DNA of 64,000 nucleotides, taken from contig NC_088300.1 in NCBI RefSeq assembly GCF_032854445.1, forward strand, positions 7,686,001 to 7,750,000, given 5' to 3'. The translations under genes and the position numbers were made by a program. The notes beneath the pieces are model-generated. The model searched no databases. It had not been told where the DNA came from and was given only the letters and a program-made list of their open reading frames with translations. The stretch comes from Liolophura sinensis (lineage: Eukaryota; Mollusca; Polyplacophora; Chitonida; Chitonidae). This document shows positions 11,429 to 52,420 of this stretch, piece by piece (positions within the stretch are counted from its first letter, which is position 1; each line of letters begins with the position of its first letter).

Positions 11429-11828
11429 GTAAAGCCTTTAAAGTATACACAGAATCGCCGTTGGTTGGCTACTGTGTGATAGGAAAACTTAAGCTGAAAT
11501 AAATTTTACGTACAGTAGATTTATTCCATGTACCCTTAAGTGTTACCAAACAAGAGACAATCTCTTTGCTCTACCGTCGGCATTGGTTCTGTATCGCTTT
11601 AATAAAGAATTCATGCAACCTACCCGAAATGTTAAGCCCAATCAAATTCTAAAATCATTTGTTAAATATTTAAGACAAAAATTAGGCGTGAAATATCACA
11701 TTCGCCAAACAGTCTTAAATCCTGAGAGAGTACATCTTATTCTCTGAAACACACAATCGAAAGAAATGTAATTGTTAACATACACCTGTTGTTAGTGATT
11801 GTAAAAATAATTTCTGCCTACTTTTCAG
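11429..11828 (+). other. MFS gene intron (400 bp)
   Basis: It starts GTAAAG and ends with the acceptor TGCCTACTTTTCAG. No embedded repeat is seen. Confidence 0.8.
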
Positions 11829-12838
11829 TTGCTAACAACCTTCTGTTGTCGCTATGGGGAGAAGCCGCTCCAACGCCCGTCAACATATTCCACTTTGGTT
11901 TTGGCGTCGGTGCACTGATTGGACCCTTCGTGACGAAACCATTTCTGTCTGAGCGATGCCCTTCGCTGGCAACGAATTCCACAAGAGTGACTCTAAACCC
12001 GGTGTGTAAGTCTACTGCAGATGATGACGGGATCAAGTACATCAGGGAGTCTAGGATTGGGATTCCGTTCACAATATCTGTAGTACCCATTGTGGCTATG
12101 GGCGTGATGTTTCTAGTGTTTTACACCAGAAACAGAGTCAGCTCGATTAGGAAGGGCTCTGCAGTTGTCACGAGTCAGACTCCACACGGAGATCCGGGAA
12201 CAAGGCTTGGGATTTGGGGAATTCTTATTGTCGTTTTGTTACTGTGCTATTACTTCACGCTGGCAGGCTCCGGATTTGGTGGTTACCTCTTTACCATTGC
12301 CTTTGAGAGCGATTTAGGATGTTCCAAAGATGATGCGTCCAAGATCGCTTCCACATTCTATGCAGCATTTACGAGTGGTCGCGTTTTAGCAGCTGTATTT
12401 TTACAGTGGTTCTCCATTAAAACCTTATTTATATTTTACGTGTTTGGGGCTTTTGGCTCGATGCTTGGAATGGCAGTTTTTGGTCTATTCTCAAAAACGT
12501 CCCTTTGGCTGTTCAGTGCTATATGTGCTCTCTATGCCGGACCTCTTTGGCCAGCTGGGTTGGCGTGGACTAATAATTACATGCACCTGACCACCATGAA
12601 CATTGCTGTGGCGGAAACTGGCGCCTGTGTGGGAGAGATTATATTCTTCTGGGTAGGCGGCTATCTTATAGATACCCGCAATATACCTGCTATCTTCACC
12701 ATGACTCTCACATGTAACGCTGCAGCCTGTCTGGTGACTGTCATACTTTATCTTATTGCTTATCGCATTGGTAAGCGAAACTTCCAGGAGAGAAATCTTA
12801 ACGATCTAGAGCTTAAATGGATCCCTGTAGCCAAGTAG
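11829..12838 (+). CDS. MFS transporter (MFSD4/NaGLT1-like), terminal exon with TM4 end to TM12
   Basis: It continues the previous exon as V-A-N-N-L-L-L-S-L-W-G-E and ends at TAG (12836-12838). Visible features in order are a family-like TM5 signature (FHFGFGVGALIGP), then a hydrophilic loop with Cys residues (ERCPSLATNST...VCKSTADDD), presumably extracellular and carrying an N-S-T sequon. TM6 is SVVPIVAMGVMFLVF, and a cytoplasmic loop of about 30 residues separates the halves. TM7 contains LLLCYYFTLAGSGFGGYLF, TM8 SGRVLAAVFLQW, TM9 YVFGAFGSMLGMAVFG, TM10 AGPLWPAGLAW, TM11 ETGACVGEIIFFWVGGY and TM12 AACLVTVILYLIAYRI. A short basic tail ends IPVAK. With the two upstream exons the assembled product is 476 residues plus a missing N-terminus, close to the usual length of about 480-510. 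It is a plasma-membrane solute transporter by family; the substrate is unknown. Confidence 0.88.
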
Positions 12839-24990: not shown

Positions 24991-26563
24991 GGTAGAAATC
25001 ATTAAACAGCAGACATTTGCCACAGTTTAATACAGGAGGAACAAAAAAAAATGCTCCACTGCCTGCACACTAAAGATATAAGCTTACCGCACTTGCCCTG
25101 GATGAAACTGGATGAAATATGGTAAACTAATATGGCATGCACATGTTGCTCTCACCAAACAAAGTGTCTTCACTTAAAACAGGTGTGTTTGTGATAACCT
25201 CCTGCTGAACACACAAGAATCGAGAGGCTCATTGTCTGTCTGCTGTACACAAGAAAATCATTTATTTTGCATCCTTGGTTGACACAGTGTTTACACAGCT
25301 TTCAGCTACATGTACATGTATATGTTTACACAGTAGACCTCTGGTGTTTGATAATCTCTTCAGCAAGAAGGCAACAGTCTCAGAGCCTGAACAGCAAAAC
25401 AGGGGGCATGTGATTACATGTACATGTATAAGCTTACCAAGGATGGAATGTAATTCAATATTCATGTTCCATGCATGTACATGTGTGCATTTATGTAAGA
25501 TTCAGAATGTGTGGGAAGGAAGTTCATACAGGAGGAGCTGCAAATTGACCTTCATGTTTACAACCCTGCCCCCTCTTCCTGCTCTCCAAACACCCTTCAC
25601 TTTGGAAAAGGTTCCACTGCTCTAAATAAGGTTTTGCATGTTTGCTTTTTATATATTAGTTTTCATCACACTCAACCTGCCTTCCACAAAATGTATACCA
25701 ATGTGAACTACTGTATACCTTTAACCAATTATATATTGTCCCAAAACTGAAATGGACATAAACTGCATTATTGGTTGTTTCGCCTTACGTAACATGGCTA
25801 AAGCTAGTGTGACATCATCACTGCATAAGAAGATGGCCCGAGCAATGTATGTGTATGACAAACTGTCAGTAAGTTTGGGTGTGACATCTATCAGGTGTGT
25901 CATCTATCCAGTGTGACTTCTACATGTATCAGGCTATTAAGTACTGGCACACCAGACAAACATGTCCTCTAACATGTATGGCAAAGAGGCAAAGATACAC
26001 TTGATATCCATGTTAATAAAGATTTTCAAAAGCAATCAAATATATGTGAATATCGACCACTTACACATGTACATTTGGGCACTTCACATGGATTTTATTG
26101 ATGTATTCTGATGTTCTTTTTTTAAACTAATCTAATGCGTCCTTACACTTTACAACACGTCTTGCATGTAATACAGTTAACACTAATGCACCCACATGTG
26201 TTTTTACAGTTTTAAAACTTGTGAGCAGCTGAGTAATGTTTGTGTTTTTCAGTCTTAAACCATCTTTATATGCATGTACATATATTTCATTCTTCACACA
26301 CTCTTAACAATTACAACCATAGACCCTTGTGATCATAGGCCTATATGTTACATAAAGGGGTACAGCAATCGTCACTGGTTGGCTGGTCTGACAGGTACAT
26401 GTTGGCCAGTTCAAGCCATGCTGAGCTTAAAAGCTGAAGTTTTGATATGGCAGATTTACTCAAGTGAGACCAAAGCTCTACGGTTTAACCCAGAAAACCC
26501 TATTTCCACAGTCAGCCAATCTGCGCTGATCCTATATCCCTTTAACTTCAGTACACAACTTAC

Positions 26564-29500
26564 CTTCATTTCTCTCCGGCAACCGATTTATTCGCCAGAC
26601 CACTGCCCTGTACACATTTTCATATTTGGCTGTTCCAACAGATGCTTCCAGAAGGGCTGGAGCTAAAGATCCTTGAGCCATCATAGTAAGGCGCTCCAAA
26701 CCTTTTATTTTACCTGGTTTTCTGGTGGCCGATCTAAAGGAGCCATAGCCAAACCGTCTCTCGTAGCGGAACAGGTAAATCCACTGCTCAGGAATGGGAA
26801 AGTGAATTTCAATATCCTCACAGGGAAACTGGCCATGCTTTTTGCTGTTGGCATGGTAACCTGTGACTAAGAGGTCACAGCGTATCTCAACATGCGTTCC
26901 CTTCATGATCTGCTGAATTTTGGCCTGCAGAGGAAGCTCTCGGTTCTCTTTTGGCCGAGCTCTGAAGCGCATGAGCTCAAACTGACAGCCATCCAGAGGG
27001 TAGAATTTAATAGTATTTGTCTTTTCAAAAGCATCCCTATCAACAACACTATGAAATTCATAATCCTGGATTTTTATCCAGTCCTCAGTTTTCACAGGAA
27101 TAATGTCATGTCTTCCAACAACTTCTTTCCCTTTCCTTCTCTTATCATTCACACCTAACTCACATGAAGGCATGCCCGTTACAAATGCTAGGCAGAAGAT
27201 GCGCACACGAGACTTCTGAGCAATGATGTGTCCATCCTTGTCTATTGTGGCCTCAAACTCATCCCAAACTTCGACAGACACTTCATCTTTGGCGTAATTA
27301 AGAGTTTTGTCCCTGTGAGTTTCCATATTCATCAAAGCATCTTCAACTTCCCAAAGAAAAGTTCGCAAGTAATCCTTCTTTAAACTGCCAAATTTCAGCA
27401 GTTCAGAAACTTGAGGTGTATGATCTAGAATCATTGTTGCTTTTGGTTTCCGCACAAAATTTGGTGTAATTCTTTCAGCCCTGATGCCCACTTTTTCTCT
27501 GTAGAAGATGTACTGGAGTTTGACTGTGTGTATTTTGCCATACTGATCATATTGTTGTAGTGCTATCTCTGACAGAGAGTAACAAGGTTGGAGAGGCAAT
27601 TCCTGAAAAGGTTCCCGCTCACCTTCATCTGTGTATAATTTCAACACTGGACCGTCTTTGACATGGACTAACTTCACAAACACATTCTTCCAATAGCGAT
27701 TTCCTGTGATTTTCTTCTTTGTTGGCTGCCTCAGCATTAGGTGCCAGCCACTACCCTCAAACTTTGGATGAAACTGTTCTAGAGGTCCAGGTGGCTCCTC
27801 GTCATCTGGGGTGCTGCTTTCAGTCGAAGTGCTCATGGCCATCTCCAGTTTTGCCTTCTCTGATTCTTCAGAGACTTCAAATTTGGCAAATTCTTCTTCA
27901 GGTGGTGAATCTCTGTCAAACGGGTTTTCTCGGAAAGGCATTGCTGAAGTTTTCGGTGGTGGTGGAATGGGAGGAGCATTGCCTACAGGCTTCCTACTAC
28001 ACGGTTTTATCTCCAGCTTCAGCGGAACTCCAGCAAAATCTTCTTCTGCATCATCTTCCCCTGGTTCTACAAGCTGATTATCCCCTGCAGCAGAGACCGC
28101 CTCAAATATAGACACAGGTCCTCGTTCAGAGGGTTCAAGCTGTTGAGCATTATTTACCCCAAAGGGATCAAAAGTATCTGAATCACTAACACCAGTATTG
28201 CCCTCAAACAAAAATGCAGATAGATCACTGGCTGGGGCAGGAGCAGATGTGTCTGTCCCTTCATCCAGAAATGGGTTTTTGGAAATAATAGTTTCACTTG
28301 AAAATGTGGCAAAGTCATCAGAGAGAAAAGGATTTTTGTTCACATCAACCTGAGATTTTTCCTCGCTAAATCCTGCATCTGACTGACCTGAAGAGAAAGA
28401 CGCATCCAAGAATGGATTATTGGAGGCAGCTGTTTCCGACTGACCAAGACCCCATGCGGAGAAAGCATCAACTGTATCCGATGGAGCCACTTTACCAAAG
28501 AAATCCTCATCAAAGTCTTGTACTGGCTTTACTACATGTACAGCTACCTCTTCCTCTGAAGTTTTAGTGTCAAATGCTTCCTCAAAATCTTTGTGGGAGG
28601 AATCAGGTTTGTTCACACAGACCACACTTTCTGGAACAAAATGAGAAACACTGCTGTCTTTACTTTGAACAACTGGTTTAATCCCCATATCTGATCTTTC
28701 TGAGAAAATATTTGGCTGCTGTGGTTGTTGAGGCTTTTTTTCTTCAACTTCACCATCAGTACCACTTGGTGCTTGACCAGATTTATCAAAGAAACTCATT
28801 TCTGTGTGAGGGTCACCCACCTCTTCAAGAGTCTGAGAAAACCAAGGATTAGGAGCTTCTGACTGAGCTTTTGTTAAAGGCTCTGACATATCAGCTTTTG
28901 AAAACAAGCTTGTACCAGAGGTGTCAAATGGGTTAATAGAAGAAGTAACATTTGAACTCATAGAAGAAAATGGATTTTCTCCAGTTGGCCTTGAGGTCTG
29001 ACGTGGATTATTATCAACAATATGTGAGTCATCTGATATCGTTTGGAATGGGTCAAATGCAACTGCAGGGTGTGCAGGGCTTGGCTCACTAGCTTTCTCT
29101 GTGCAATTCAAGCCAAGAAAATCATCCATGATGCTGTTCACCAACTCCTTGGCAGAGGAATCTTCTGGTTGTGGATGGGAATCTGCATTTCCCATTCCTC
29201 CTAATAAATCTGAGTCAAAGACACATGGACTGGACCTCTGAGAGGACTGAGAACTGTCTGTGACAGAACTGAAGAGAAGTTCCACTGTTTTAGATTTAGG
29301 AGCTGGCACAGGTTCTGAAAGTGGATCAAAGGAATCTGTGGTATGTGTATTTGTATTCTCCATCTGACTATCAAGGCCTAGCCCTAAGAGATCTTCACTT
29401 AACAAACTCCCAGCAGGCTGGCCAGGCTCTGAGCTCTGGGTAGACATCTCACCAAGGCCAAGCAGATCCATACTGACTGTAGGCAAGTTATCGTCACTTA

Positions 29501-30373
29501 AAATGTCTCCCTGTGTCAAATCTTCTTGACTTGTTCTCACACTATTGCTAGGCACCCGTGGTGATATTCTAGGAGAGGGAACAGGTGTGACCTCCAAGTG
29601 AAGCAAGTCTGTTCCTGTGTCAATCAGCTCCGTGTCTGTAATATTGTCATCATAAGCTGCCCAAGACAAATCTAGCTGATCATTTTTAATCACATCTATA
29701 TCAATTTCTGTTAATCTGTCGTCCTTTTCTAGCTGTTCTTGATCAAAGCTCACCCAAGTCCCTCCAGCTGCCTGTCCCCCAGCCTTGACAGTACCATCTG
29801 GAGAATCAGCTACAGTGGTGGACGCTAGTTTAGTGAGGTTGCTCCTGGTCTGCTGAACAGTTTGTTTGATTCTTTCTTGCATTTCCTGAAAAGCCCGCCA
29901 TTCTTCAGAGTCCTCATCAATCTTACCACCTTGAACTCCTGCAGCTTCATCAGTCAAGTTTTCATGTGAGGGAGAGAGAGATGGGGACTTTGATCGACTA
30001 GAGCTCTTCCCTCCCGATTTGGATAAGGCCTTGGCAAGTGACTTGCCAACAGATTTGGAAGGGGATTTCAGAGGGGATTTGGGGTAAGGGTGTTTGAGGG
30101 CTGCTTTGGTTTTCTTGGCACCTTCCTTGGCTCTTGACAGGAGACCGCTAAGTCCTTTAGAAGATTTCTTTGCTTTGCTATGTGAGTAACTTCCAAGATC
30201 TAGATTAGATTTTAAAGGGGTGTTTGTTGGGGACAACTGATTGTCTTCAGGGGGAGTTTTCTCCTCTACTTTCTCTTTTTCACCATTGGTGGGTGATGGC
30301 AAGTCCACACACAAAGATGAAGATTCATCAAAGGACCCACTCATTGCTGGTCTGCTGACAGCCCCAATTGGTC
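26564..30373 (-). CDS. Stonin/stoned-B-like endocytic adaptor, main 3.8-kb exon
   Basis: Stonins are clathrin/AP-2 associated adaptors that sort synaptotagmin into endocytic vesicles (vertebrate STON1/2, Drosophila StnB, nematode UNC-41). The minus-strand acceptor TTTAATTTCAG precedes 30373. The most likely start is the ATG at 30344 (MSGSFDESSS); the longer open frame to 30413 would read through the acceptor. Counting from that Met, a Lys/Ser-rich basic stretch lies at about 60-130. A WVSF motif (WVxF type, which binds the AP-2 alpha ear in stonins) is near 196. Six NPF motifs for EH-domain partners lie near 456, 471, 644, 670, 690 and 803, and two DPF motifs are present. A proline-rich PPIPPPP sits near 790. 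The stonin homology domain covers about 860-1010 (GWHLMLRQPTKKK, NRYWKNVFVKL), and the mu-homology domain runs from about 1015 into the last exon. The donor is GAAG|GTAAGT after 26564. At 1344 residues it is close to StnB-type length. Any 5' UTR exons were not found. Confidence 0.93.
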
Positions 30374-30592
30374 CTGAAATTAAACAAGAGATGCCATGAG
30401 AAACAAAATTCAATAATATCCAACAAAGGTGCTACACAGTGGACTCTATTCTCACAGTTTTCATAAATTGCTTTTACAATAGTTTCATATTTTGATAAAC
30501 TGTTTTATTTTGGCTTCATTTTTGTTTGTTTGTTTTTTTGTTTTTGATGTGGCTTTTTTCAAAAAACCTTTTTTTCTCTTTTCTTTTGGATG

Positions 30593-47977: not shown

Positions 47978-48871
47978 TGTACAGGCAGTGGTCACCCATG
48001 ATGACATCTTGGTACCAAAACACTAACATGCTACTGTACATGTATAGCACATACACCACTGCCTGTCTGTACATGATCACAGGTGACCACTACCTGTCTG
48101 TATATGTACAGGATCATGTTAATGTCTTGGTACCAGGATTTCATCACAGGTGACCACTACCTATCTGTACATGTACATGAGCATGTCAATGCTTTGGTAC
48201 CAGACTGTCGTCACGGGTGACCACTGCCTGTCTGTACATGATCATGTCAATGTTTTGGTACCAGGATGTCATCATGGGTGACCACTACCTGTCTGTACAT
48301 GTACATGAGCATGTCAAAGTCTTGGTACCAGAGTGTCGTCACGGGTGACAACTACCTGTCTGTACATGATCATGTCAATGCTTTGGTACCAGACTGTCGT
48401 CACGGGTGACCACTGCCTGTCTGTACATGATCATGTCAATGTTTTTGTACCAGGATGTCATCATGGGTGACCACTACCTGTCTGTACATGTACATGAGCT
48501 TGTCAGTGTTTTGGTACTAGAGTGTCGTCACGGGTGACCACTGCCTGTCTGTACATGTACATGAGCATGTCAATGCTTTGGTACCAGAGTGTCGTCACGG
48601 GTGACCACTGCCTGTCTGTACATGTACATGAGCATGTCAATGTTTTGGTACCAGGATTTCATCATGGGTGACCACTACCTGTCTGTACATGTACATGAGC
48701 ATGTCAAAGTTTTGGTACCAGGATGTCATCATGGGTGACCACTGCCTGTCTGTACATGAGCATGTCAAAGTTTTGGTACCAGGATGTCCTCACAGGTGAC
48801 CACTACCTGTCTGTACACGTACATGATCATGTCAGTGTTTTGGTACCAGGATTTCATCATGGGTGACCACT
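47978..48871. repeat. 60-69-bp minisatellite (GGTACCAGGATGTCATCATG), left block with an inverted first unit
   Basis: About 13 units of TTTTGGTACCAGGATGTCAT, CATGGGTGACCACTACCTGT and CTGTACATGTACATGAGCAT are present. Two length classes differ by whether the palindromic TACATGTACATGAGC or the shorter TACATGATC is present. The first unit (47978-48041) is in the opposite orientation (CAGGCAGTGGTCACCCATGA then TGGTACCA). The array resumes at 52235. Confidence 0.95.
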
Positions 48872-48875
48872 ACCT

Positions 48876-49328
48876 GGACACAGACCCCCATTACAACTTC
48901 CGTTTTTCGGTAGGGACGATTGTAGTTCTGTGTATTTCAGGGTGTAAAGTCTTTTTTTGCTGCCAGCCTGCCGTTTTTGGTGTACAGGTGCATGCTTGGT
49001 ATCAAAATGATGGAAATTGTCTAAGCTTTGGGCAGGTATGAGTTTTAATGGTGAAAGTTTGAAATTCTGGGCGAGAGGACACAAGGAGACAGGTGGTGAT
49101 GAGGCTGCGAGTGACGTCCCCTTGGCGTTGCTAGGCACCCCTCCCAGCTGCCGGCATGGAAAGGTCCAGATTTTGACGGTCAACCTATGTCAAGATTTTT
49201 ACAGCTTCTTTCTCACAGGCTGGGCCAGGTATGCACCAAAGCTTATTGGCCTCGGAATGTTTGGGACTGAGCTACAGCGCTAAACGTTAACATTGTCGCT
49301 TATGGAAAACTAATGGGGGTCTGTGGCC
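48876..49328. mobile_element. 453-bp terminal direct repeat with 18-bp TIRs, left copy
   Basis: It begins GGACACAGACCCCCATTA and ends TAATGGGGGTCTGTGGCC, an 18-bp inverted repeat with one mismatch at position 3. That is the architecture of a small TIR element. Open frames within it (49017-49283 plus, 48857-49183 minus) recur identically in the right copy and have no recognisable domain. Confidence 0.85.
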
Positions 49329-50600
49329 TGATCTGTCCACTTGTGCCAAAACATGTAATATGTCACTGTGTGCTCAGATTTCGCAGCAGCCTGATAATAT
49401 TTGGTGGGTACATCTGCGATGTGGTTTGCATTGACATGGAACTTGATTGAGCAGTTTTAAAGCTTTTTAATTCTATATTTTCCCCACATATCCATTTTGT
49501 CTAAAAATCGGCTAAAACGCTCTGTGGTCAAGGGTAGTACAGGAGTATAAACAGACTGGAACAAACACAGACAACGTTTCATTGTTCCTGGTTTTTAAAA
49601 TGTCTCTTTTGGGGCTGACATTTGATAAATAATGCAAAATTTGAGTGCTGCGAGTGAAATTGGAGTATGTGGCTGATAGATAGGGTGGTGTGATTAAGGA
49701 TGGTCAATAAGGCCTTGCATCACATATAAGGGCCCAGCCTCACACAGGTGGATAAAAACACATCAGCAGATTAATTTACTTGGCTAGAGTAGTAGAGAGG
49801 GCCAGTGTGCATTTAATTTACAAACCAAGTCAGGTTCCTCCCATGTGTGCCACCACACACTAGGTAAATGTGCTTCAAATCATCCTGCAGGTCACAAAAC
49901 ATTAAAAACAGGCATCTCTGCTGCAACACTGTCTGCTGTTTTGGGCATAGACTTGAAGTGGACAAGGTAAATTTTCCTCTTTAAACTTAAAAATAAACCA
50001 CTGTAGGCATGTAGTTTTCATTGCATGTGTATATTCATTCCTCTGACAAGTTACATGTGCACTCACACAGTATGTGTGGCGTTGGAACAAAAATGATCAA
50101 TTTCAAGTTTCTAGCATACATGTAAGTGTGATCTGTTGGAATATTGCCCTTGTGAAAATGAGTCTCTGCCCCACCAGGTGTCTGTTTCTCCACCAGAACA
50201 TAGTACGCTGTTCCTGCGACATCTCAAGGAGTTTTTGTTTTAGTATCTGGCCCAGTGTGGCATCCACCTCCCTGGGCAACTGGGATTTTGTTATGTTTCC
50301 AATGTCCTCACACACAAGTTAGAAATTAGACAGCTACATATGGCTTTCACATCCTAGTTTAATACCTATTGAGCTTTCGTCTTGGTTTCCCTCTTTAGAT
50401 CTTGTCTCCCAAACATGGCGTCAGTGAACTTTGCCTGGTTTATGCATATATTGAACTGGGATCTACCTAGGTGAGTGGGGTCTACTAGCCGTTCAGCTTC
50501 CTCAAAGGCCTGACCATTCGGATGCAGTCTTCCACTCCCTTGGCCGACCTAGAATCCCCGTCATTGGTCCGGTACTACACCATGATACATACCCCTCCAG

Positions 50601-50619
50601 CCCCCCCCCCCCCTCCCCC
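50601..50619. repeat. Poly(C) tract
   Basis: A run of C13 is followed by T and C5, inside the unique interior of the composite element. Confidence 0.95.
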
Positions 50620-51072
50620 AACCGGGGAAACGTCACAGGTTTCTCATATATGTACGGACAGTTTGAATGTCCATTCCTCATGCCCACCCAGGAACACCCA
50701 GTGTGGAACCTGATTACGGATGTAATTTCTCACTGATTATTTGAGGATTTCTGTGTTGTTACAGGTTAAAAAGTATAGCTTTTCCCCTCTTCTTGGGTCC
50801 CTTCAACATGTCTTGGGAGGGTTGCCTTGCTGACTGTCTGAATGACCAATGTGCATGTACTGTGTGGCTTTATTTTTGTAAGTGGCAAATTCATATTTCT
50901 CCCCTCTACTTATCTCTTGTAGATGCCAGTGTCACACTTTGGTGTTTGTTATGTGGAAAGTACTAATTTAGTCTGAGGCAACAACACAGGTGGTGGGATT
51001 CTTTTGCACTGTGAGTTGAGGTAAGCCAGCCAACCAATGGCAGCCATGGGGGAGACGGGAAAGCGGGGTAGT

Positions 51073-51092
51073 GGGGGGGGGGGGGGGGGGGG
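51073..51092. repeat. Poly(G) tract (G20)
   Basis: Twenty uninterrupted G residues lie inside the interior of the composite element. This is a potential G-quadruplex and a likely site of sequencing or assembly error. Confidence 0.95.
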
Positions 51093-51781
51093 TAGTGGGT
51101 GATCTTTTAAAGGGTTTTATCATGTGAATCACTATGTAAAAGGGATACTAGTCTTTTCTTTAGCCCTATCCATGGAAACTGTGCCTATGAGCATTTCTAT
51201 ATCAATTTGGATGCATATGTTTACTTTGATGGTGATCAAAATGTACTTTTCTGGAATTTTGAAACTCCGCTTTGCTACCCACCTGTATCACTTTAAGTCA
51301 AATTTTGCACAAAGTTGCTAAAAGGTATGTCCTATATTTTGTAAGTGAATTGTCAGATAAATTACCTGTCTTTTGATATATATTTTGACACTTTTGGCTT
51401 TTAAGTATTTTCTTAACACTGCTGTAAACAAGAAAATCTACTTGAAAATCCATAATTTTCTAAATGTTTGTCAATGGAAAATGTAAAATACTTTGTCATT
51501 GGAATTTTTTCATTTTTCTTGCAGATATACATACCAGCTTTCCAAAACATTTGACCTGGTTGAGATATTTTGAACGGTATGTGCACTACAGAGCTTTGAA
51601 CTTTGTGCTTGAGGACGGACAAACAGACACATTTCCAAGATAGGGGTACCCCAAGTTAAATTCCTCCTACTCAAAAGTTTTTGCATGTATCAAGCTGTAA
51701 CTTTATGTGTGAGGTTTAGAGGTAGTAAGCATTATGTGGTGCAAAAATTATTGATTTTGAAAAAAGTTGGCTGGTGTGATA

Positions 51782-52234
51782 GGACACAGACCCCCATTAC
51801 AACTTCCGTTTTTCGGTAGGGACGATTGTAGTTCTGTGTATTTCAGGGTGTAAAGTCTTTTTTTGCTGCCAGCCTGCCGTTTTTGGTGTACAGGTGCATG
51901 CTTGGTATCAAAATGATGGAAATTGTCTAAGCTTTGGGCAGGTATGAGTTTTAATGGTGAAAGTTTGAAATTCTGGGCGAGAGGACACAAGGAGACAGGT
52001 GGTGATGAGGCTGCGAGTGACGTCCCCTTGGCGTTGCTAGGCACCCCTCCCAGCTGCCGGCATGGAAAGGTCCAGATTTTGACGGTCAACCTATGTCAAG
52101 ATTTTTACAGCTTCTTTCTCACAGGCTGGGCCAGGTATGCACCAAAGCTTATTGGCCTCGGAATGTTTGGGACTGAGCTACAGCGCTAAACGTTAACATT
52201 GTCGCTTATGGAAAACTAATGGGGGTCTGTGGCC
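51782..52234. mobile_element. 453-bp terminal direct repeat with 18-bp TIRs, right copy
   Basis: Same orientation and, by eye, the same sequence as 48876-49328, with the same GGACACAGACCCCCATTA start and inverted end. It is followed by the ACCT target duplication and the resumed minisatellite. Confidence 0.85.
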
Positions 52235-52420
52235 ACCTGTCTGTATATGTACATGAGCATGTCAGTGTTTTGGTACTAGAGTGTCGTCACGGGTGACCAC
52301 TACCTGTCTGTACATGATCATGTCAATGTTTTGGTACCAGGATGTCATCATGGGCGACCATTGCCTGTCTGTACATGATCATGTCAATGTTTTGGTACCA
52401 GGATGTCATCACTGCAGTGA
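52235..52420. repeat. 60-69-bp minisatellite, right block
   Basis: Three units (GGTACTAGAGTGTCGTCACG, GGTACCAGGATGTCATCATG and GGTACCAGGATGTCATCACT) continue the array interrupted at 48875. Confidence 0.95.

Follow-up and report, generated by a model that had tools for sequence, protein, structure and literature searches.

Within a 64,000-nucleotide stretch of the genome of the chiton Liolophura sinensis (contig NC_088300.1; the whole stretch is hereafter the window) lies an insertion that is almost certainly a non-autonomous KolobokP DNA transposon, a 3,359-bp unit in which two long terminal direct repeats (LTDRs) enclose an internal segment (INT) in the order LTDR-INT-LTDR. KolobokP was described in 2022 (Kojima and Bao, Mob DNA 13:24; PMC9587614), and all that is said here of this account refers to the parts of it that were consulted. 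The molluscan hosts in its Table 1 are bivalves and gastropods, with chitons not listed, and the present host, a member of Polyplacophora, belongs to a class outside that table; no report of KolobokP in a chiton was found in the literature searched. Going beyond the 2022 account are a preference for A-N-N-T targets, paired LTDRs that resemble each other as sisters do, and a subfamily that has been successful although its endonuclease is dead, and it is the homogenised ends that form the most interesting part of the finding. The mechanism of KolobokP was left open in 2022, notably how the paired ends are kept (PMC9587614). In the long-read assembly of the chiton, young copies of every type (autonomous, non-autonomous, solo, multimeric and endonuclease-dead) occur together, and this allows one to ask directly whether a cut-and-paste transposon re-copies its ends with each move and whether the endonuclease is needed.

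Structure of the insertion

The two repeats in the window lie in direct orientation and are alike at 453 of 453 bases compared, with 2,453 bp between them. The tetranucleotide ACCT stands on both sides of the unit, which splits a minisatellite of 61/67-bp units cleanly, and each LTDR is bounded by its own 18-bp inverted repeats with one mismatch (GGACACAG.../GGCCACAG...). The first-pass annotation of this DNA had described the identical repeats, the ACCT duplication within the minisatellite and the inverted repeats on each LTDR, and all of these hold; the identical ends also support its view that the event was recent, although the homogenisation of ends in these elements calls for caution. The termini are GG...CC, of the form 5'-RR/YY-3', in all 20 LTDRs whose sequence was written out. 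The same annotation had seen no coding capacity, and this stands insofar as no intact gene was recognised in the INT of the window, where the listed open frames are short, but it does not stand for the decayed remnants of two genes that were found there by tblastn. The transposase remnant matches with 82% identity over 22 residues and 50% over 116 (E 1.2e-28) and has in-frame stops, while the endonuclease remnant consists of two overlapping pieces in two frames, also with in-frame stops (49% and 42% identity, E-values 6.6e-5 and 5.8e-4), and of an extra 14-residue piece at 49907-49948. The two remnants lie on opposite strands, as in KolobokP, and because the INT holds these decayed pieces we read the window element as a degenerate non-autonomous relative of coding copies. 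A scan of the window against Rfam gave no match at gathering score. The features of the insertion are as follows, the tblastn queries having come from loci L062 and L085, which are described below.

48076..48871, no strand: left part of the 61/67-bp minisatellite (the tandem-repeat row ends at 48876)
48872..48875, no strand: left target-site duplication, ACCT
48876..49328, plus strand: left LTDR, 453 bp, GG...CC ends
48876..48893, plus strand: outer 18-bp inverted repeat of the left LTDR
49311..49328, minus strand: inner 18-bp inverted repeat of the left LTDR
49329..51781, plus strand: INT, 2,453 bp, starting with TGAT and ending with TGATA, without a recognised intact gene
49684..49856, plus strand: decayed remnant of a His-Me finger homing endonuclease gene (tblastn with the L062 protein)
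50156..50568, minus strand: decayed remnant, in two frames, of a Mutator-like (Kolobok) transposase gene (tblastn with the L085 transposase)
51782..52234, plus strand: right LTDR, 453 bp, same as the left
51782..51799, plus strand: inner 18-bp inverted repeat of the right LTDR
52217..52234, minus strand: outer 18-bp inverted repeat of the right LTDR
52235..52238, no strand: right target-site duplication, ACCT
52239..52412, no strand: right part of the minisatellite (tandem-repeat row 52248-52412; first bases assigned by eye)

Autonomous relatives and assignment to KolobokP

The listing of 18-bp ends in the genome pointed to larger LTDR pairs, among them L062 and L063 on contig C1, whose LTDRs show 86-94% identity to the repeat of the window (at both loci the right LTDR is incomplete or fragmented) and which have the ends of INT in common with the window element. 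L063 encodes a Mutator-like transposase (PF20700, E 7.2e-50), and L062 encodes, on the strand opposite the transposase, PF05551 (zf-His_Me_endon, the zinc-binding region of homing endonucleases; E 2.2e-8), with a weak match of this endonuclease to the I-PpoI structure 1evw (E 0.74). When 19 frames of five larger loci (L061-L064 and L085) were scanned, PF20700 and PF05551 were the only families above cut-off; 14 other frames of these loci gave no family above its cut-off, and neither a reverse transcriptase nor a retroviral integrase was found in any of the 19.

A search of the genome with the transposase gave 111 matches from the best 106 of 214 candidates, many of them with open frames of 689 residues. 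One autonomous copy, at C5:18616918-18621508, is 4,591 bp long, with LTDRs identical at 453 of 453 bases and ACCT on either side, and its 684-residue transposase (L085) matches PF20700 with an E-value of 1.5e-77. The L085 protein has a single C/DxxH, the DPTH at residue 407, which follows a DGD at residue 380 and is a candidate for the catalytic motif; a C..C..H..C arrangement is visible by eye in the translation, and a sequence search of the PDB with the transposase gave no match up to E 1. Complete LTDR pairs are present in 20 of the 21 autonomous copies, the remaining one running into N. Twenty of the autonomous copies were taken from the top rows of the transposase search; in 10 of them the endonuclease match is split, and in the other 10 it is in one piece.

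KolobokP elements have LTDRs of about 450 or 660 bp around INT, each with its own inverted repeats of 11-18 bp, RR...YY termini and target duplications of 3-5 bp; they occur as solos and multimers and show INT-INT junctions with a micro-deletion, and their INT encodes a DDE transposase (C/DxxH, with a CCHC zinc finger after the first catalytic D) and, on the complementary strand, a His-Me finger (I-PpoI-like) endonuclease (PMC9587614). The chiton elements agree with this in their 453-bp LTDRs, 18-bp inverted repeats, GG...CC ends, 4-bp duplications, solos, multimers, INT-INT junctions with a micro-deletion and both genes, and also in having non-autonomous forms (3,359 bp here, 1,738-3,261 bp in the oyster). 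They differ in that the INT-INT junction is 5 bp short here against 3 or 4 almost always, and that one subfamily here has a broken endonuclease, whereas the published account names two families without a recognisable one (PMC9587614). The first-pass annotation had been unable to match the insertion to any family, a statement now superseded by its identification as KolobokP (PMC9587614), and had considered a composite mobilised by a transposase, which is supported by relatives with the same ends that encode a DDE transposase and by full and solo copies with 4-bp duplications. Searches across the genome for such copies, and for autonomous relatives with the same ends, had also been suggested there, and they yielded solo copies, full copies and transposase-encoding copies such as that on C5, with exact 4-bp duplications in 54 of the 67 insertions tested from all three groups.

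Copies across the genome and their target sites

With the 453-bp repeat as query, the best 40 of 2,079 candidates match at 99-100% identity, and 963 exact copies of the 18-bp end are present in the genome against 0 for the reversed control pattern; the repeat is therefore not a product of chance. The INT search gave 44 rows from the best 38 of 540 candidates, and 38 of the 44 are near full cover at 98-100% identity. Full non-autonomous copies were sought at 22 dispersed full-length places from the INT search and at one pair from the repeat search, and 22 of these 23 attempts, the window's copy included, gave complete LTDR pairs at dispersed places, C10_11.3 being dropped because its left LTDR is incomplete. 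Left out of this set were the arrays on C26, C7:32.9 Mb, C587 and C625, a dimer at C2:27.10 Mb, an LTDR-INT copy at C10:9.15 Mb whose right LTDR is missing, and partial copies on C1, C5 and C11. To the solo LTDRs of the first search was added a later set of 20 places on C1, picked by hand among the first 100 of the 963 ends with known pairs avoided; 4 of these 20 also stand in the 453-bp repeat search, and L086 was excluded from the solo count because it is the right LTDR of a longer element.

An exact 4-bp duplication flanks 19 of the 22 full copies, 5 of the 5 solos of the first search, 14 of the 19 further solos and 16 of the 21 autonomous copies, so that the 54 exact cases among the 67 pooled insertions are made up of 19 full, 19 solo and 16 autonomous copies. 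The other 13 comprise one 5-bp case, cases with one mismatch, one copy cut by N and some unmatched ones. Specifically, the full copies concerned are C13_25.3 (5 bp), C7_21.01 (2 extra bases beside ATAA) and C11_8.28 (unmatched), the solos are L100 and L101 (one duplicated locus, counted twice), L092 and L102 (one mismatch each) and L096 (without a right end), and C5_6.9 was scored as non-exact on account of an N in its right LTDR. The target sites show a preference for A-N-N-T: 47 of the 54 exact duplications start with A and 45 end with T, so that 92 of the 108 end positions conform, where the composition of the window would lead one to expect about 30% (p about 1e-32, a value that is only a guide since the copies were not randomly drawn). 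Among the autonomous copies it is less pronounced, with A first in 11 of 16 and T last in 13 of 16.

Mate LTDRs are near-identical within elements

Among the 22 full non-autonomous copies, mate LTDRs are identical in 13 pairs. With gaps counted, the mean number of differences is 1.6 within a pair and 6.5 between elements, and none of 10,000 permutations of partners gave a mean as low as that observed. For 36 of the 44 LTDRs the nearest sequences include the mate, and there is no grouping of left versus right repeats (left-left 6.7, right-right 6.2, left-right 6.5). Variants private to one element are found in both mates 20 times and in a single mate 17 times, 14 of these 17 lying in C7_45.5 and C11_8.28, the latter being also the copy without a matched duplication, and where a variant is shared between elements, both mates carry it in 42 of 47 element cases. 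If two independent ends moved by plain cut-and-paste, left and right lineages would be expected, and these are not seen. The 10 autonomous copies with a single-piece endonuclease likewise differ by 0.6 within pairs versus 2.1 between elements, with 0 of 10,000 permutations as low. In L062 and L063, which are older copies of the autonomous type, the mates are 2.0% (6/296) and 1.7% (7/412) apart, and homogenisation therefore does not continue for ever.

Paired direct repeats, solos and mates that are nearly identical in each insertion are also known from terminal-repeat retrotransposons in miniature and large retrotransposon derivatives (TRIM/LARD elements), and 4-bp duplications are possible for long terminal repeat (LTR) elements. 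A non-autonomous LTR retrotransposon of this type with GG...CC ends, its repeats copied by reverse transcription, would thus account for mates that are near-identical while elements differ and for the common solo repeats with duplications, and the first-pass annotation had likewise thought of atypical LTRs. However, the ends are GG...CC and not TG...CA and carry 18-bp inverted repeats, the genes found in relatives that share these ends are those of a DDE transposase and a homing endonuclease, with a reverse transcriptase or retroviral integrase in 0 of the 19 frames scanned, the window copy itself holds remnants of that transposase and endonuclease, and no tRNA-type primer site starting with TGG is seen by eye after the left repeat. 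We consider this reading very improbable and reject it.

An opportunistic composite, in which two 453-bp copies of a miniature inverted-repeat transposable element came by chance to flank unrelated DNA and were then mobilised together, would fit the fact that each repeat is bounded by inverted repeats and also occurs alone with duplications, as well as the existence of INT-INT junctions without the repeat. Repeats also stand near each other around other DNA: at L061 two 87% LTDRs are separated by 5.65 kb and lie within a larger direct duplication (at least 1,028 bp, 98% identical) in which no gene was recognised, and at L067 two repeats have about 145 bp between them. At L064 no partner LTDR in direct orientation was found within the 4.8 kb read. 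Against such a composite, the same INT was found in 11 of 11 pairs about 2.9 kb apart in a search made with the LTDR only (C6_73.4 included), the other full copies not being counted on this point because they were chosen by their INT. Moreover, autonomous copies that bear the transposase between repeats of the same kind have INT ends in common with it, the INT holds transposase remnants, and the mates are sisters rather than members of two independent lineages, all of which leaves the chance composite with hardly any probability.

An endonuclease-dead subfamily

At 11 loci with an open transposase frame (689-725 residues) the endonuclease is split near residue 89 into two frames, and in L085, the one copy compared base by base, the lesion is a 10-base deletion over codons 87-90. 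In copies with a single-piece endonuclease the frame runs through the break site and stops after about residue 142 (three of three read). The near-identity of the dead copies indicates that the subfamily spread after the break, and hence the endonuclease is not needed in cis; it is possible that it is supplied in trans by other copies. Multimers were found at 0 of the 11 dead loci and at 2 of 13 comparison loci in which the transposase frame is open and the endonuclease match is in one piece, a difference that is uninformative (p 0.48).

Multimers, junctions and possible traces of excision

Besides the dimer on C2, tandem arrays are found on C7, C26, C321, C587, C620 and C625, some of which are small unplaced contigs, and at C9:31.86 Mb and C12:29.09 Mb autonomous units follow one another in tandem, separated by LTDRs. 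INT forms satellite-like arrays, with and without intervening LTDRs, on C321, C587, C620, C625 and C7:32930493-32969300. Six contigs hold between them 21 INT-INT junctions, with an identical 26 bases every time; INT ends with TGTGATA and starts with TGATCTG, and the junction, TGTGATCTG, is 5 bp shorter than INT plus INT. Because all 21 are identical and most lie in arrays, the junctions may stem from one or a few events. The LTDR-INT and INT-LTDR junctions number 118 and 218, counts that are not comparable because the INT-LTDR pattern also fits autonomous copies.

The arrays are what would speak for the insertion being a fragment of a satellite or tandem array, or an assembly artefact, instead of a mobile insertion. 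Full copies stand, however, at 22 dispersed places, 19 of them with their own exact 4-bp duplication, and the insertion in the window splits a minisatellite cleanly, so that this explanation has the lowest probability of those considered and is close to nil.

At L100 and L101 (C1:47699894-47700406 and C1:47808590-47809102) a single LTDR is preceded by GATA between the left flank and the LTDR. GATA is the last four bases of INT, and it looks like a footprint, as if an LTDR and INT had been removed jointly.

Proposed mechanism

We propose that the transposase from an autonomous copy would act on the outermost inverted repeats and so insert the whole unit, and that a single LTDR may also be excised or move alone. 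The two LTDRs of each insertion would be made alike from one copy and would later drift apart, for which gene conversion, birth from a multimer and a one-LTDR circle are candidate routes. We put forward tentatively, as a possibility with the odds against it, that KolobokP uses one copy to re-make both of its long end repeats at or close to each insertion, without reverse transcription and with its own endonuclease in cis being dispensable. If this is true, a DNA transposon would resemble an LTR retrotransposon in re-making its ends, for example through a one-LTDR circle or a multimer as intermediate.

Several points limit or count against what we propose here and the assignment itself. Movement is deduced from the copies, and the assignment to KolobokP from anatomy, end sequence and encoded genes. 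In the 11 endonuclease-dead copies the mates differ by 0.36 within versus 0.54 between elements (891 of 10,000 permutations, not significant), and the divergence among these copies is too low to judge the mate pattern. With private INT changes taken as a clock, the mate differences show no significant rise (Spearman 0.22, p 0.33, n=22), and for this reason identity at birth is not separable from later conversion. An exact duplication is lacking in 3 of the 22 full copies, 5 of the 19 later solos and 5 of the 21 autonomous copies. Finally, no strong target preference was seen in the KolobokP families studied, and the A-N-N-T preference found here departs from that published picture (PMC9587614).

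Comparison with other mobile elements

Other Kolobok elements share with the chiton copies the DDE transposase with C/DxxH, RR...YY ends and a 4-bp duplication; unlike the latter, they generally duplicate TTAA, and long direct repeats are not described for them (PMC9587614). Bacterial composite transposons and the translocatable units of IS26 are alike in having two mobile, directly oriented ends around a unit that can move as a whole, and single ends that move by themselves, but the present elements are eukaryotic, and their autonomous transposase gene lies between the repeats and not in them (PMC9587614). Compared with TRIM/LARD elements, the chiton copies have no TG...CA, bear 18-bp inverted repeats and have relatives with a DDE transposase and without reverse transcriptase.

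Other features of the window and the assembly

The window is rich in tandem repeats, with 54 Tandem Repeats Finder rows (overlaps included) and units of 4 to 183 bp. A 1,299-residue open frame at 26532-30431 on the minus strand carries an adaptor-complex medium subunit domain (PF00928, E 3.1e-39), and we presume it to be similar to stonin. On the plus strand, a 370-residue open frame at 11726-12838 has a weak match to the major facilitator superfamily (PF07690, E 6.2e-6, below cut-off). Elsewhere in the assembly, contig C99 contains COX1, read under the invertebrate mitochondrial code, seven times in steps of about 15.5 kb. ARAGORN gave no tRNA there, and the contig looks like a mitochondrial concatemer that stayed in the assembly.

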